From Methylacidiphilum caldifontis (lineage in GTDB: Bacteria > Verrucomicrobiota > Verrucomicrobiia > Methylacidiphilales > Methylacidiphilaceae), in contig NZ_CP065957.1 in NCBI RefSeq assembly GCF_017310505.1, positions 1,488,001 to 1,552,000 on the forward strand: 64,000 bases of DNA, in the 5' to 3' direction. How positions within the stretch are numbered: position 1 is the first letter of the stretch; the number at the start of each line of letters is the position of its first letter. Below, piece by piece: positions 43,628 through 49,558 of this stretch. Under the pieces are notes generated by a model. It saw nothing but the letters and a program-made list of their open reading frames with translations. It had not been told where the DNA came from and searched no databases. The position numbers and the translations under genes were made by a program.

Positions 43628-43954
43628 CTATCCTTTAAAAGCGAAAAACACTGCACCGATAATAAACAAATAGGCAATCAAGAGGTTCCAGCTGGGTGAT
43701 TCTTTGAAAATAATCCAAGCAAGCAAAGTAAACACGGCAAGGGTAATGCATTCTTGGAGAACTTTGAGCTGAGTGACACTGAACGAGGAAGATCCTATTC
43801 TATTGGCGGGTACTTGAAAGATATATTCAAAAAAAGCAAGACCCCAACTCATCATTATAGCCGAAGGCAAAGGTTTATTCTTGAATTTCAGATGGAGATA
43901 CCATGCTAGGGTCATGAAAATATTAGAAAGAATTAGAAGCAAAACGGTTTTCAT
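43628..43954 (-). CDS. DUF486 family small membrane protein
   Basis: Starting at the Met of MKTVLLLILSN (43954) the protein has 108 residues; an upstream ATG (43996) would add 14 that do not fit the family. Four transmembrane segments are predicted, as in small multidrug-resistance-like DMT proteins. The blocks NIFMTLAWYLHLKF, SWGLAFFEYIFQVPANRIGS, QLKVLQECITLAVFTLLAW and YLFIIGAVFFAF match the DUF486 pattern closely. Function unknown; it resembles EamA/SMR half-transporters in size. Confidence 0.88.
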   Translation of the reverse strand: MKTVLLLILSNIFMTLAWYLHLKFKNKPLPSAIMMSWGLAFFEYIFQVPANRIGSSSFSVTQLKVLQECITLAVFTLLAWIIFKESPSWNLLIAYLFIIGAVFFAFKG

Positions 43955-44125
43955 GGGTCTGGATGCGATTTTTATGTTTTTAATTTGCATAACCAATCAC
44001 AGCAAAAAAACTCCACATCGAAAGCTATTGAATTTTATTTTGGGGAAGCCACTGAAGAACTTTTCAAAATCGAAGATAATTTCTGAAATCAAAGATCATA
44101 GAAGGGCTCCCAACATAAAAAATTT

Positions 44126-46069
44126 TTAAATTTTTCCTATTTTATCTATAAACTGACTATCTTCAAGTGTTGTTGTATCCCCGGTAATCCGTCCTTGCAG
44201 GCTGACTTCCTTTAAAAGTCTTCTGACAATTTTCCCACTTCTGGTTTTGGGCAGTGTATCAAGAAAACGGATCTCTTGTGGCCTGGCCAAGGAGCCAATT
44301 TCCTTGACAACATGATCTTTTAAAACTTGAACAAGTTCAGTTGAAGCCAAATAACCTTCTTTAAGAGTAATAAAAGCGATCAGGGCCTCTCCTTTATAGG
44401 GATCAGGAATGCCTACAACGGCTGCTTCGGCTACCGCAGGATGACTGACTAAGGCATTTTCTACCTCGGCAGAACCAATACGATGGCCAGAAACGTTTAT
44501 GACATCATCGATCCGACCCGTAATCCAGAAATAGCCTTCTTCATCTTTGTAAGCTCCATCTCCTGTAAAATAAACTCCAGGTATTCTACTGAAATATATT
44601 TTTTTGTAACTGTTTTCATCTTTGTATATTCCCCTAAACATGGAGGGCCACGGTCCTTTGATAACTAAAAAACCGTTACGGCCTGGGGGTAGGGGATTGC
44701 CCTGTTCATCAACGACTTCTGGAGATATGCCAAAAAAGGGAAAGGTTGCTGAGCCAGGTTTCATTGGCGTGGCTCCAGGTAAGGGTGAAATAAGAATTGA
44801 CCCTGTTTCTGTCTGCCACCAAGTATCTACAATAGGACACTTTTCTTTGCCCACATGACGATAGAACCACATCCATACTTCTGGGTTAATGGGTTCTCCC
44901 ACACTCCCAAGTAATCTTAAAGAAGATAACTCATGGTTCGCAATCCACTGCAATCCCCATTTGATAAATGCCCTTATGGCAGTAGGAGAGGTATAAAAAA
45001 TAGTTATCTTGTATTTTTCAATCAACTGCCAAAACCGGTCGAAGGAAGGAAAATCAGGAGCACCTTCATAAATAAAAATCGAAGCTCCATTGGCTAAAGG
45101 CCCATAAACAACATAGCTATGTCCTGTAATCCATCCGATATCAGCCGTACACCAATACAAGTCTTCTTCTTTGAGATCAAAAATCATTTTGGTACTAAAA
45201 GCGGTCTGGACCAGATATCCACCCGAAGAATGAACTATTCCTTTAGGTTTGCCCGTAGTCCCACTGGTATAAAGGATGAAAAGAGGCTGTTCACTATCAA
45301 GGACAGCTGGATCACAAAATTCTTCAACCCCAGCTCGTTCTTTTTCCATCCAGTAATCCCTTCCCTCGATCATTTGAACCGCAGAGCCTGTTCTTTTAAA
45401 AACAAGCACCTTTTTTATTTGATTGCTTAGGCTAGCCGCCTCATCTACTCTGGTTTTAAGAGGAATTATCTTTCCCCTGCGAAATCCTCCATCAGCTGTA
45501 ACTATTAGACGAGCCCCACTATCGAGTATTCTTTCTAGTAATGACTTCGAGCTAAACCCGGCAAAGACGACATTATGGATAGCGCCAATTCGAGCACAGG
45601 CAAGCATGGTGATAATGGCCTGAGGGATTAAAGGCATGTAAATAACAACCGTATCAGACTTGCCTACTCCATGTTTTTTTAGAACATTCGCCGTAATGCA
45701 GACTTCTTTGGTTAACTCTTCGTAACTGTAAGTGAGGCTTTCTCCATTTTCGCCTTCCCAAACCAAAGCTCTTTTGCTTTTTCTATTTCCTTTCAAATGC
45801 CTATCCAAGCAATTATAAGAGACATTTAAACTGCCCCCACAAAACCATTGAGGATGAATAAGCTCTCCATTAGATGTCTTTTCCCAGGGTTTAAACCAAT
45901 CTATTTCTTGAGCTACTTTTCCCCAGAAGAGTTCAGGATTATCGATCGACTCTTTGTATAATGCCTTGTATTTCTGTTGAGTATCGATAAGTGCTTTCTG
46001 AGAAAAAGAATGAGGAGGATAGATTTTTAGCGATAAATAAGATCTTTCTTGACTCTGTTGGTCACCCAT
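44126..46069 (-). CDS. acs: Acetyl-CoA synthetase
   Basis: Activates acetate to acetyl-CoA via acetyl-AMP. The 647-residue length is normal. The ANL-superfamily motifs are visible: A3 LYTSGTTGKPKGIVHSSGG, A5 DTWWQTETGS, the hinge FTGDGAYKDEEGYFWITGR, and the C-terminal TRSGKIVRRLL whose Lys is the catalytic residue regulated by acetylation in this family. The N-terminal part has FKPWEK and GGSLNVSYNCLDRH, typical of Acs. It lies 74 bases after the AAA+ regulator gene on the same strand, which may control or share its transcript. Confidence 0.96.
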   Translation of the reverse strand: MGDQQSQERSYLSLKIYPPHSFSQKALIDTQQKYKALYKESIDNPELFWGKVAQEIDWFKPWEKTSNGELIHPQWFCGGSLNVSYNCLDRHLKGNRKSKRALVWEGENGESLTYSYEELTKEVCITANVLKKHGVGKSDTVVIYMPLIPQAIITMLACARIGAIHNVVFAGFSSKSLLERILDSGARLIVTADGGFRRGKIIPLKTRVDEAASLSNQIKKVLVFKRTGSAVQMIEGRDYWMEKERAGVEEFCDPAVLDSEQPLFILYTSGTTGKPKGIVHSSGGYLVQTAFSTKMIFDLKEEDLYWCTADIGWITGHSYVVYGPLANGASIFIYEGAPDFPSFDRFWQLIEKYKITIFYTSPTAIRAFIKWGLQWIANHELSSLRLLGSVGEPINPEVWMWFYRHVGKEKCPIVDTWWQTETGSILISPLPGATPMKPGSATFPFFGISPEVVDEQGNPLPPGRNGFLVIKGPWPSMFRGIYKDENSYKKIYFSRIPGVYFTGDGAYKDEEGYFWITGRIDDVINVSGHRIGSAEVENALVSHPAVAEAAVVGIPDPYKGEALIAFITLKEGYLASTELVQVLKDHVVKEIGSLARPQEIRFLDTLPKTRSGKIVRRLLKEVSLQGRITGDTTTLEDSQFIDKIGKI

Positions 46070-46143
46070 AGGAATGCCCTTTTTGTTGTTCCATTTTTAG
46101 TAAGAGGAAAATTTTTTATTTCGTAAAGGATATTCCAATATAT

Positions 46144-47088
46144 TTATCGAATATCATACTTTCTCAACTTGGCATAGAGAAGAGGTCTAACAATACCCAA
46201 TTTTTTGGCAGCCGCTGAGCGGGTTGGACATTCAGCAAGAGCTTTTTGGATAAACATTTGTTCAAGTTCTTCCAAAGCTTTGGGCAAGGGGAGGTTGAAA
46301 AGATGTTCCATTTCATTTGATTCGAAACGATTGACAAAAGGAAGATCAATATCTAAAGGATCGATTGTTCTTTTTTGGAGAGTTAAACAAAGTCGAATGA
46401 TCAAGTTTTCTAACTCTCTTATGTTACCAGGCCAGTGATAACGAAGAAGGACCTCTAGAGCCTTTTTTGAAATATGTTTAGGGTTATCCTTGGAATATTT
46501 AGAGATAAAATAGTGCACGAAATCGGTAATATCTTCTTTTCTTTCTCTAAGAGAAGGAACCCGTATTCGAATAACGTTGAGTCGAAAGAATAGCTCCTTG
46601 CGGAAATGACCCTGATGCATCTCTTTTTCAAGATTGCCTTTATTAGAAGCAATTATCCGAATAGCCTTGTGTGAGAGGTCTTTTTTTGATTGGTCAAAAA
46701 GCCGAAGTATTTTGGATTGTAAGCTAGGTTTTAGTTCTTCGATCTCGTCAAAGAAAAGTGATCCTCCTGTAGCCTCTAGCCACTTTCCTTTTTGTCTTGC
46801 CGGGGGCTGTTGTCGATCAAGGCTGGTCAGATTCTCCCCGAAGAGTTCATTTTCTGCCAACTCTTCTGGAAGTGAACTGCAATGAATGGAAATAAATGGA
46901 TAGGAAGCTCTTGAGCTATTGAAATGAATGGCTTGGGCAATGAATTCCTTGCCACTGCCCGTTTCCCCTGTTATAAGGACAGGCTGATCGGTAGAAGAAG
47001 CGATAGCAACCATTTTTCGAAGTTCGTCTGCTAATTTGCTCCTACCAATTATAACATATGAAGAATGGGATTGGGGAGGGCTGCTCAT
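46144..47088 (-). CDS. AAA+ regulator of the NtrC type lacking the GAFTGA loop
   Basis: The 314-residue protein is a sigma-54-interaction-like AAA+ domain with a C-terminal Fis-type helix-turn-helix (RSAAAKKLGIVRPLLYAKLR). Walker A is GETGSGKE (41-48), Walker B is GGSLFFDEIEEL (108-119), the arginine-finger region FRKELFFRLNV (162-172) and sensor II WPGNIRELENL. There is no N-terminal receiver or ligand-binding domain. Where ELFG should be followed by HEKGAFTGA, the protein has ENLTSLDRQQPPARQ, so the loop that contacts sigma-54 is missing. It may regulate sigma-70 promoters as TyrR does, or be a co-regulator. It stands directly upstream of acs on the same strand. Confidence 0.85.
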   Translation of the reverse strand: MSSPPQSHSSYVIIGRSKLADELRKMVAIASSTDQPVLITGETGSGKEFIAQAIHFNSSRASYPFISIHCSSLPEELAENELFGENLTSLDRQQPPARQKGKWLEATGGSLFFDEIEELKPSLQSKILRLFDQSKKDLSHKAIRIIASNKGNLEKEMHQGHFRKELFFRLNVIRIRVPSLRERKEDITDFVHYFISKYSKDNPKHISKKALEVLLRYHWPGNIRELENLIIRLCLTLQKRTIDPLDIDLPFVNRFESNEMEHLFNLPLPKALEELEQMFIQKALAECPTRSAAAKKLGIVRPLLYAKLRKYDIR

Positions 47089-47343
47089 AGTGCTTGTGTT
47101 TTAAACACGGCCTATTTTCAATAAGTTGGTTATAACTTTCTTCTTTTTCTATAACATATCGTGCACGTTGTAAAAAGCCAGCGCCATAAAATAAGGGTTG
47201 ACATAACAACAAAATAAGCAGTTTTGTATTCTGAGTTATTTTTGTTTTTTATAAATCCTTTATGTAAAAAACTCATAAAGAATAGGAAAGTTTCTTGTTA
47301 AGAAACCACAAAAGAAAGAGACCTAAGTATTGTTTGAAGTTTA

Positions 47344-49473
47344 TTAAACCATCAGTTCGAAGTGTGTCTTTTGGCCTTCGATCGAATTAGGGCCTACCCA
47401 CAGGAAAAATCGACCAGCCTCAAGTTTCTTTTCCCCTTCGAAGTCTATAAAAGCCAGATCTGAAGGGCTGATAGAAAATTTTACCGTTTGCTTCTCTCCT
47501 GGTTGAAGGCAAACTCTTCTGACAGCTTTAAGTTCTTTTATAGGCCTTGAAATGGAAGCCGTAGCATCCCTGATATAAAGCTGGATACTTTCTTCACCAG
47601 CTATATTCCCTCTATTTTCTATTTCCACGTAGACTTCGAGGATTTTATCAGGGGTAATTCTTGTGAGATTGAGCCGAGGAAAGCTGTAATGAAAGGTTGT
47701 ATAACTTAATCCATAACCAAAAGGGAAGAGGGGTGTTGTGGCTTGATCAATATAGCCTGAACAAGGAATAGACCAACCGGAAGGCCTACCTGTAGCTAGA
47801 TGTCTATAGTAAATTGGGATTTGACCGACAGATCTTGGAAAGCTAATAGGTAGTTTTCCTGAAGGATTACAAAGACCAAATAGAATTTGTCCTAAAGCTC
47901 TTCCTGTTTGTGTCCCCAAAAACCAAGCCTGAATAACTGCCTTAGCTCCAGAAATAAACTTGCATAAATCAAGCGGCCTGCCACTGAATACGACAATGAT
48001 CACCGGAGGTCCGATTTGGAGGAGGGTTTCAAGGAGCTGTGATTGCCCAGCTGGCAAATCCAGGAAAGCTCTTGACGCCGCTTCCCCTGACATTCTTGCT
48101 TTTTCTCCAACTGCTGCAATGATGAGCTGGCTTTTTTGGGCAATCTCTATGGCCTGTTGCAACTGTTCTTTCGAAGAAGAAAAATAATCAGATCCTCTAG
48201 CTACAACGATTTTTGTTCCCGGGGGAGCATACTCTTTCATCCCCTCGGCCAGGGTTACGACTTCTTGAGGATCACCTATTGCTGGCCATGGACCTAAGTG
48301 TTCTTTCTTTTCGGTACTGAAAGGCCCAATCAAAGCTATTGAACTTATATTAGGAGCAATGGGCAGAATAGCTTGTTCATTTTTAAGAAGGACAACCGAT
48401 TTTTGGGCTGCTTCAAGGGCGATTTCTCTGTTAGTTTGGATTAAGGGTTGGAATTCTTTGTTGTTTTTTTCGACCTGTGGATAGGGAGAAGAAAACAGCC
48501 CAAGTTTATGCTTAAAACATAGAACCCTTAAAACGGCCTTATCGATGGTTTCTTGCTTTACTTTACCTTCCTGAACAAGTTCTTTTAGGTATTTTAAATA
48601 GAGACCACTGGCCATATCGATATCAATGCCTGAATTGATGGCGATTTGAGCTGCCTCTTTTTCATTTTCAGCAATGCCATGTTGTATAAGTTCTTTGACG
48701 GCATTCCAGTCACTGATAACAGGTCCTTTGAAGCCTAGTTCATCTCGTAATAAGTCTTTGAGTAAGTAAGGGTTTGCGGCGGGTGGAAGTCCATTTATAG
48801 CAGGAAAAGCAGCCATCGTTGAGAAAGCTCCTTTTTTAAAAGCTTCGCTAAAGGCTGGCAGATAAACTTCCTTGAGCAGCTGAATTGGAATATTGACCGT
48901 ATTATAATCCCTGCCCCCTTCAACAGCTCCATAACCAACAAAATGTTTTGGACAAGCCGCAAGAAGACTCGAAGAACAAAGAGTGTTTCCTTGAAATCCT
49001 TTGATCCAACTGGAACTTAAAAGCGCTGCCAGATAAGGATCTTCTCCTGGACATTCAGCAACTCTTCCCCAACGAGGATCCCTTGTTACGTCTACCATTG
49101 GGGCGAAGGTCCAATGGATACCATTGGACCGAGCTTCTAGGGCTGATCCATGGGCTACTTTCTCGACCAGTTCGCTGTCCATGCTAGAAGCTAAAGCGAT
49201 GGGAATGGGGAAAATGGTTTTGAATCCATGTAAAACATCATAGGCAAACAGGAGGGGAATTTTTAACCGGCTTTTACATAAAGAGATTTGCTGAGCAAGC
49301 TGAATCTGATCAGGATCTGAGATGTTCAAGAAAGAGCCTACATAACCCTTTTCGATAAGGGTTTTTTGCTCATGGGAAAGGCAGCCGTTTTGGGCAGAAA
49401 GTTGAACAAGTTGTCCAATTTTTTCTTCCAGTGTCATTAAAGATAGCAGATTTGTGATTTCGGATTCAATCAT
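47344..49473 (-). CDS. Glycoside hydrolase family 3 beta-glucosidase
   Basis: The ATG at 49473 (MIESEITNLL) gives 709 residues; a TTG at 49506 would add 11. The GH3 N-terminal barrel has LMTLEEKIGQLVQ, CPKHFVGYGAVEGGRDYN with the substrate-binding KH pair, and GPVISDWNAV with the nucleophile Asp. The GH3 C-terminal domain and a fibronectin-III-like domain follow (about residues 620-709, with EIENRGNIAGEESIQLYI and LKAVRRVCLQPGE), as in BglX. No signal peptide is visible, so it probably acts in the cytoplasm on short beta-glucosides. It is not beside transporters. Confidence 0.92.
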   Translation of the reverse strand: MIESEITNLLSLMTLEEKIGQLVQLSAQNGCLSHEQKTLIEKGYVGSFLNISDPDQIQLAQQISLCKSRLKIPLLFAYDVLHGFKTIFPIPIALASSMDSELVEKVAHGSALEARSNGIHWTFAPMVDVTRDPRWGRVAECPGEDPYLAALLSSSWIKGFQGNTLCSSSLLAACPKHFVGYGAVEGGRDYNTVNIPIQLLKEVYLPAFSEAFKKGAFSTMAAFPAINGLPPAANPYLLKDLLRDELGFKGPVISDWNAVKELIQHGIAENEKEAAQIAINSGIDIDMASGLYLKYLKELVQEGKVKQETIDKAVLRVLCFKHKLGLFSSPYPQVEKNNKEFQPLIQTNREIALEAAQKSVVLLKNEQAILPIAPNISSIALIGPFSTEKKEHLGPWPAIGDPQEVVTLAEGMKEYAPPGTKIVVARGSDYFSSSKEQLQQAIEIAQKSQLIIAAVGEKARMSGEAASRAFLDLPAGQSQLLETLLQIGPPVIIVVFSGRPLDLCKFISGAKAVIQAWFLGTQTGRALGQILFGLCNPSGKLPISFPRSVGQIPIYYRHLATGRPSGWSIPCSGYIDQATTPLFPFGYGLSYTTFHYSFPRLNLTRITPDKILEVYVEIENRGNIAGEESIQLYIRDATASISRPIKELKAVRRVCLQPGEKQTVKFSISPSDLAFIDFEGEKKLEAGRFFLWVGPNSIEGQKTHFELMV

Positions 49474-49558
49474 AACACTGGATAAGAGGGGGAAGCTCAA
49501 AACCAAGCTACGCTAAAGAAAAACTTCCAAGAAGATTGCTCAAATAAAGACAGCGTGT

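Follow-up and report, generated by a model that had tools for sequence, protein, structure and literature searches.

A GAFTGA-less enhancer-binding-protein paralogue beside acs in Methylacidiphilum, probably uncoupled from sigma-54

Introduction

Several regulators related to the enhancer-binding proteins lack the GAFTGA motif. TyrR and DhaR of E. coli are both described as sigma-70-dependent in the available part of PMC3162934, and NtrC of Caulobacter crescentus, NtrC of Rhodobacter capsulatus and HupR, which are likewise GAFTGA-less, have been linked to sigma-70 promoters (PMC10274813, PMC3162934, as far as their available text goes). The Caulobacter and Rhodobacter NtrC proteins are discussed together with a statement that some proteins of this sort work at sigma-70 promoters and do so without hydrolysing ATP (PMC10274813, available part), and VpsR of Vibrio cholerae is listed as another protein without the motif (PMC3162934, available part). 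Changes at the central phenylalanine and threonine of GAFTGA are reported in the same portion of that paper to reduce or abolish activity. For E. coli PspF, the accessible text of PMC2745333 describes the tip of the pre-SIi loop as essential for interaction with sigma-54 and residues E81, E97 and R131 as a conserved switch linking the two loops.

Here, we describe a further protein of this kind, encoded in a 64,000-nucleotide stretch of the Methylacidiphilum caldifontis genome (contig NZ_CP065957.1, positions 1,488,001 to 1,552,000; hereafter the window). A sequence-only reading of the window had picked out the gene as an NtrC-type regulator without GAFTGA, placed before acs. Our analysis suggests that the protein is most likely a sigma-54-uncoupled DNA-binding regulator of the TyrR/DhaR kind in which the core has been remodelled differently. 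The features discussed are collected in Table 1.

Table 1. Features of the regulator locus (window coordinates).
Feature	Coordinates	Strand	Basis or remark
acs, acetyl-CoA synthetase	44126..46069	-	Directly downstream of the regulator, 74-bp gap; Pfam ACAS_N, AMP-binding, AMP-binding_C
Regulator-acs gap	46070..46143	-	No -24/-12, promoter-like or terminator-like match
GAFTGA-less enhancer-binding-protein paralogue (regulator)	46144..47088	-	ORF, Pfam, orthologues, alignments
Fis-type helix-turn-helix region, residues 271-314	46147..46278	-	Pfam HTH_8; 91-98% between congeners, the most conserved part of the regulator
Shortened pre-sensor I loop L2, residues 132-141, DQSKKDLSHK	46666..46695	-	6 residues fewer than PspF; alignments
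Replaced loop L1, residues 85-105, ENLTSLDRQQPPARQKGKWLE, where the GAFTGA-bearing loop would stand	46774..46836	-	Alignments; pLDDT
Region upstream of the regulator	47089..47343	-	No -24/-12 match with <=2 mismatches; palindrome search gave A/T runs only
Glycoside hydrolase family 3 (GH3)	47344..49506	-	Upstream neighbour of the regulator, 255-bp gap; Pfam

Sequence and structure analysis

The open reading frame encodes 314 residues from an ATG start, its stop codon being counted within the coordinates. Pfam matches Sigma54_activat (PF00158, E 1.4e-39) at residues 13-175, together with AAA_lid_14 and HTH_8, and gives no N-terminal regulatory or sensory domain, in agreement with the earlier reading. 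A structure model calculated with AlphaFold2 from a 62-row alignment displays a confident AAA+ fold (mean pLDDT 87.6), with values below 50 at residues 88-96, inside the replaced loop L1; a model from a five-row alignment reached a pLDDT of 45 and was set aside. A search with Foldseek using the 62-row model returned enhancer-binding proteins as the best matches, with NtrX on top.

Orthologues were found in all four other genus members searched (68-72% identity), and the frame is open in all five genomes. In a search of 60 genomes (threshold 1e-50), genus members matched at no weaker than 1.8e-139, against 6.2e-57 for the top match elsewhere, with no orthologue among the 55 non-genus genomes. 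A draw of 288 genomes from the phylum, four of them from the genus, gave the same picture: genus members scored 620-650 bits, the best non-genus match about 225 bits, and no orthologue was found among the 284 non-genus genomes. A scan of genome contigs gave one distant match. The five orthologues group together in the tree (support 100/100), which places a nearest paralogue beside them only tentatively (82/28).

Sigma-54 itself has not been lost from the organism. The window genome (2.25 Mb, one contig) encodes RpoN in an uninterrupted frame of 458 residues, for which the profile match covers the DNA-binding domain only, and its six other enhancer-binding proteins all keep GxFTG[AS]. Seven enhancer-binding proteins are encoded in each of the four single-contig genomes of the genus. 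One of the canonical paralogues, an NtrC-like response regulator (L004:1006-2481; genome positions ~1693878-1694597), has an intact GSFTGA and, unlike the other five, is not matched by Pfam HTH_8 at E 1e-6; its orthologues in genomes G002, G003 and G004 are 66-84% identical to it in the HTH_8 region.

The pattern G-x-[FY]-T-G-[AS] is found in none of the five Methylacidiphilum orthologues and in all 57 other homologues of the 62-row alignment, these 57 being the best-scoring matches, several from Methylacidiphilum itself, rather than a random sample. The replacement string quoted in the sequence-only reading, ENLTSLDRQQPPA, is exact. That reading had also raised the possibility that a GAFTGA-bearing homologue would expose a local artefact; no orthologue with the motif was present in the alignment, and the agreement of five genomes rules out a sequencing or local artefact as the cause. 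Between the conserved ELFG and the conserved glycine that follows it lie 14 residues in PspF, GAFTGA among them, and 16 in the window protein, starting ENLTSLDRQQPPARQ. The position of the motif is occupied by ENLTSL in the window protein, in which the phenylalanine and the second glycine are replaced, by GHFAGV in two sister species and by AHFAGV in one; in these three remnant loops the threonine has become alanine, F85 is kept and so, by alignment, is G87 (residue numbers here and below are those of PspF, verified against the E. coli sequence). Since three sister species retain such a remnant, the alignment suggests that an ancestral GAFTGA decayed, by different routes, rather than having been absent from the start.

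The second loop is altered as well. The pre-sensor I loop is six to seven residues shorter in all five orthologues, and its glycine, kept in 57 of 57 homologues, is lost in each of them. Equivalents of E81, E97 and R131 occur in none of the orthologues and in 41, 44 and 43 of the 57 others, respectively, and the same is true of the sensor I residues T148 (57 of 57 others) and N149 (53 of 57). The Walker B glutamate (E108), present in all 57 other proteins, is glycine in three of the five orthologues, so that Walker B reads DE in the window protein and in G002 and DG in the three remaining species. Histidine at the position of N64, found in all five orthologues, was left out as a loss because it is shared by 25 of the 57 canonical proteins. 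The equivalents of the Walker A lysine (K42), the arginine fingers R162 and R168 and the sensor II arginine R227 are kept in 5/5. The sequence-only reading, which had taken the AAA+ core and the Fis-type helix-turn-helix as intact, thus stands for Walker A, the arginine fingers, sensor II and the helix-turn-helix, but not for the pre-sensor I loop and sensor I, which are altered, nor for the Walker B glutamate of three species. The alignments lend good support to its prediction that sigma-54 promoters cannot be opened by this protein in the usual manner, since both sigma-54-engaging loops are changed in every one of the five orthologues.

The six canonical paralogues of the window genome, each compared with its counterparts in G002, G003 and G004 (18 comparisons, against three for the regulator), served as a control for rates of change. 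Between congeners, L1 is 23-32% identical in the regulator versus 76-100% (mean 94%) in the canonical paralogues, and L2 is 10-30% versus 70-100% (mean 92%) identical. The two loops are therefore the fastest-changing segments of the regulator, whereas the same loops are among the most conserved parts of the canonical paralogues. Over the remaining AAA+ domain the regulator is 71-78% identical (canonical mean 86%), and over the helix-turn-helix its 91-98% compares with 54-93% (mean 79%). This contrast between helix-turn-helix and core is less clear-cut than that of the loops and is not unique to the regulator: in the L002-type canonical paralogue the helix-turn-helix (82-93%) also exceeds the remaining AAA+ domain (76-82%). 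In three pairs dS was unsaturated, and their dN/dS estimates of 0.06, 0.09 and 0.13 indicate that the gene is under purifying selection; in the other pairs dS was saturated or uncomputable. With these values in close pairs and open frames in 5/5, a pseudogene is unlikely.

Comparison with described regulators

TyrR is similar to the window protein (32% identity over 287 residues) in combining an AAA+ domain and a helix-turn-helix without GAFTGA and in keeping Walker A, both arginine fingers and sensor II. It differs in having a seven-residue gap in L1, a pre-sensor I hairpin of full length that retains the glycine, DE at Walker B and more than 200 residues ahead of the AAA+ part; in the window protein, L1 carries other letters and two extra residues, and the pre-sensor I loop is shortened. 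DhaR (29% identity over 304 residues) shares the absence of GAFTGA and an altered Walker B, but it has kept the length of the pre-sensor I loop, lacks the two arginine fingers and the sensor II arginine that are present in the window protein and carries more than 300 residues ahead of the AAA+ part. Membership of either family proper is not indicated by NCBIfam, in which the regulator scores 192.1 bits against a cut-off of 576 for TyrR (NF008085) and 184.4 bits against 551 for DhaR (NF008485) and falls below the cut-off in all 25 families shown of the 26 matched.

The two NtrC proteins are set apart by their description (PMC10274813, available part), which reports deletions in L1 and a need for the receiver phosphorylation site; the window protein has no receiver and no net shortening of L1. 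HupR was likewise compared by description only. The solved structure of VpsR (PDB code 7v2b) is among the Foldseek matches; VpsR binds c-di-GMP according to the title of that entry, whereas no GGDEF match is present in the window genome. In its short layout without a large N-terminal part, the regulator resembles PspF (325 residues, AAA+ match from residue 8), which differs in possessing GAFTGA, the full pre-sensor I loop and T148/N149. A shortened hairpin may also exist in other GAFTGA-less proteins, TyrR and DhaR being those that were aligned here.

Genomic context

The gene for GH3 adjoins that for the regulator in all five genus members. The placement before acs noted in the sequence-only reading is borne out in four of the five; in the fifth, the contig ends 142 bp past the regulator. 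In sister genera of the family, no relative of the regulator was found near acs at any of eight acs loci, within up to 1.5 kb. Two further observations concern the neighbourhood. The gap between GH3 and the regulator in G002 (L039:7091-8211) is about 1.1 kb long and contains no ORF of more than 110 residues, compared with 255 bp in the window. Downstream of acs, a 122-residue ORF (43628-43996) is 88-92% identical across the genus, compared with 75-83% for acs, and stays beside it.

The search for -24/-12 elements upstream of acs that had been suggested with the sequence-only reading gave no match with up to two mismatches in the 74-bp gap, and none was found in the 255-bp gap before the regulator; over the whole window, 49 matches compare with 41 expected by chance. 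Neither gap contains a sigma-70-like match. The interval from 45900 to 47400 lacks any terminator-like match, and its sole promoter-like match sits within the regulator gene. A palindrome search upstream of the regulator in three of the five genomes, assessed against 30 single-base shuffles, recovered A/T runs only and no convincing shared operator; a T-run motif scoring 29, above the shuffle maximum of 27, was dismissed as being of low complexity. Footprinting was limited by both gaps being poorly alignable between the two species groups.

Published expression data touch on acs itself. In strain SolV, a gene labelled Acs has values of 448, 297 and 414 RPKM in three conditions (PMC3404531, available part), so that strong regulation of acs is not visible there. 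During growth on ethane, the accessible portion of PMC7768010 reports no upregulation pointing to the pathway after acetate. The available part of PMC3404531 holds nothing on the GAFTGA-less regulator gene, and our literature search of the genus and phylum was limited, so a prior report is possible.

Functional implications

We propose that, by the time these Methylacidiphilum species diverged, this paralogue would already have abandoned sigma-54 activation, and that it would have been kept as a DNA-binding regulator. It would still bind nucleotide and self-assemble through its AAA+ interface, bind operators through the helix-turn-helix and, together with the ordinary (sigma-70-type) polymerase, serve as a repressor or an activator; its likeliest site of action would be the promoter of a presumed regulator-acs transcription unit. 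Control of acs is plausible from the arrangement of the locus, and a sigma-54-independent DNA-binding regulator acting mostly at this unit is the explanation that we favour, as the probable one with considerable room for doubt. Because the protein has no sensory domain, its signal would have to come from its own abundance, from a partner protein or from the nucleotide in the AAA+ pocket. c-di-GMP is unlikely to be that signal because GGDEF (PF00990) has no match in the whole window genome (8 of 14 control genomes were matched), from which c-di-GMP signalling is probably absent.

The same kind of regulator might instead have its main target somewhere other than acs, in a distant regulon or something else, for which we see an appreciable minority chance. 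Regulators often act elsewhere; the adjacency of GH3 is as well conserved as that of acs, the Acs-labelled RNA of SolV (PMC3404531, available part) is almost flat and the palindrome search in three of the five genomes gave no shared operator. The arrangement on the DNA argues the other way: the regulator and acs lie on the same strand, 74 bp apart, with no terminator-like match between them, and GH3, which points the same way, is located ahead of the regulator rather than after it.

A more specific proposal, to which we would give a rather low probability, is that the AAA+ pocket is itself the sensor and the protein an energy-charge switch over the ATP-consuming acs. The proposal starts from the absence of a sensor domain and from the loss of the coupling between hydrolysis and the loops. 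ATP/ADP would be read through Walker A, the arginine fingers and sensor II, this would set the oligomeric state and the oligomeric state would in turn set DNA binding; in the three species without the Walker B glutamate, a former motor would have become a switch that works by nucleotide binding alone.

That the regulator is an inactive subunit mixed into rings of the six canonical enhancer-binding proteins is improbable. Such a role would fit a protein that has lost its sigma-54-engaging loops and kept its arginine fingers and assembly core, but it has no obvious need for a helix-turn-helix, here the most conserved part of the protein, and the paralogues of its own genome are only 36-44% identical to the regulator. 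If the gene were the functionless remains of a sigma-54 activator in decay, the erosion of several AAA+ motifs, including the Walker B glutamate in three of five species, would be accounted for; against this very improbable reading stand the five open frames, dN/dS of 0.06-0.13 in close pairs, the 91-98% identity of the helix-turn-helix and a position that is conserved in the genus. Activation of sigma-54 promoters through an unusual loop is the least probable reading of all: the retained Walker A, arginine fingers and sensor II, the confident AAA+ model with its enhancer-binding-protein matches and the motif remnant in three species are outweighed by the replacement of the central threonine in those remnants and of the phenylalanine and second glycine in the window protein (PMC3162934, available part, reports reduced or abolished activity for changes at the central phenylalanine and threonine), by the shortened pre-sensor I loop, by the loops being the fastest-evolving segments and by the lack of a -24/-12 match nearby.

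Conclusions

The regulator amounts to a natural experiment in which an ATP-driven transcription motor has been deprived of its sigma-54-engaging parts and has kept those for binding nucleotide and DNA, with six canonical relatives in the same genomes as built-in controls. It also carries a caution for annotation, in which a Sigma54_activat match alone should not be taken to mean a sigma-54 activator. For the verrucomicrobial methanotrophs, it provides a testable candidate regulator beside acs.
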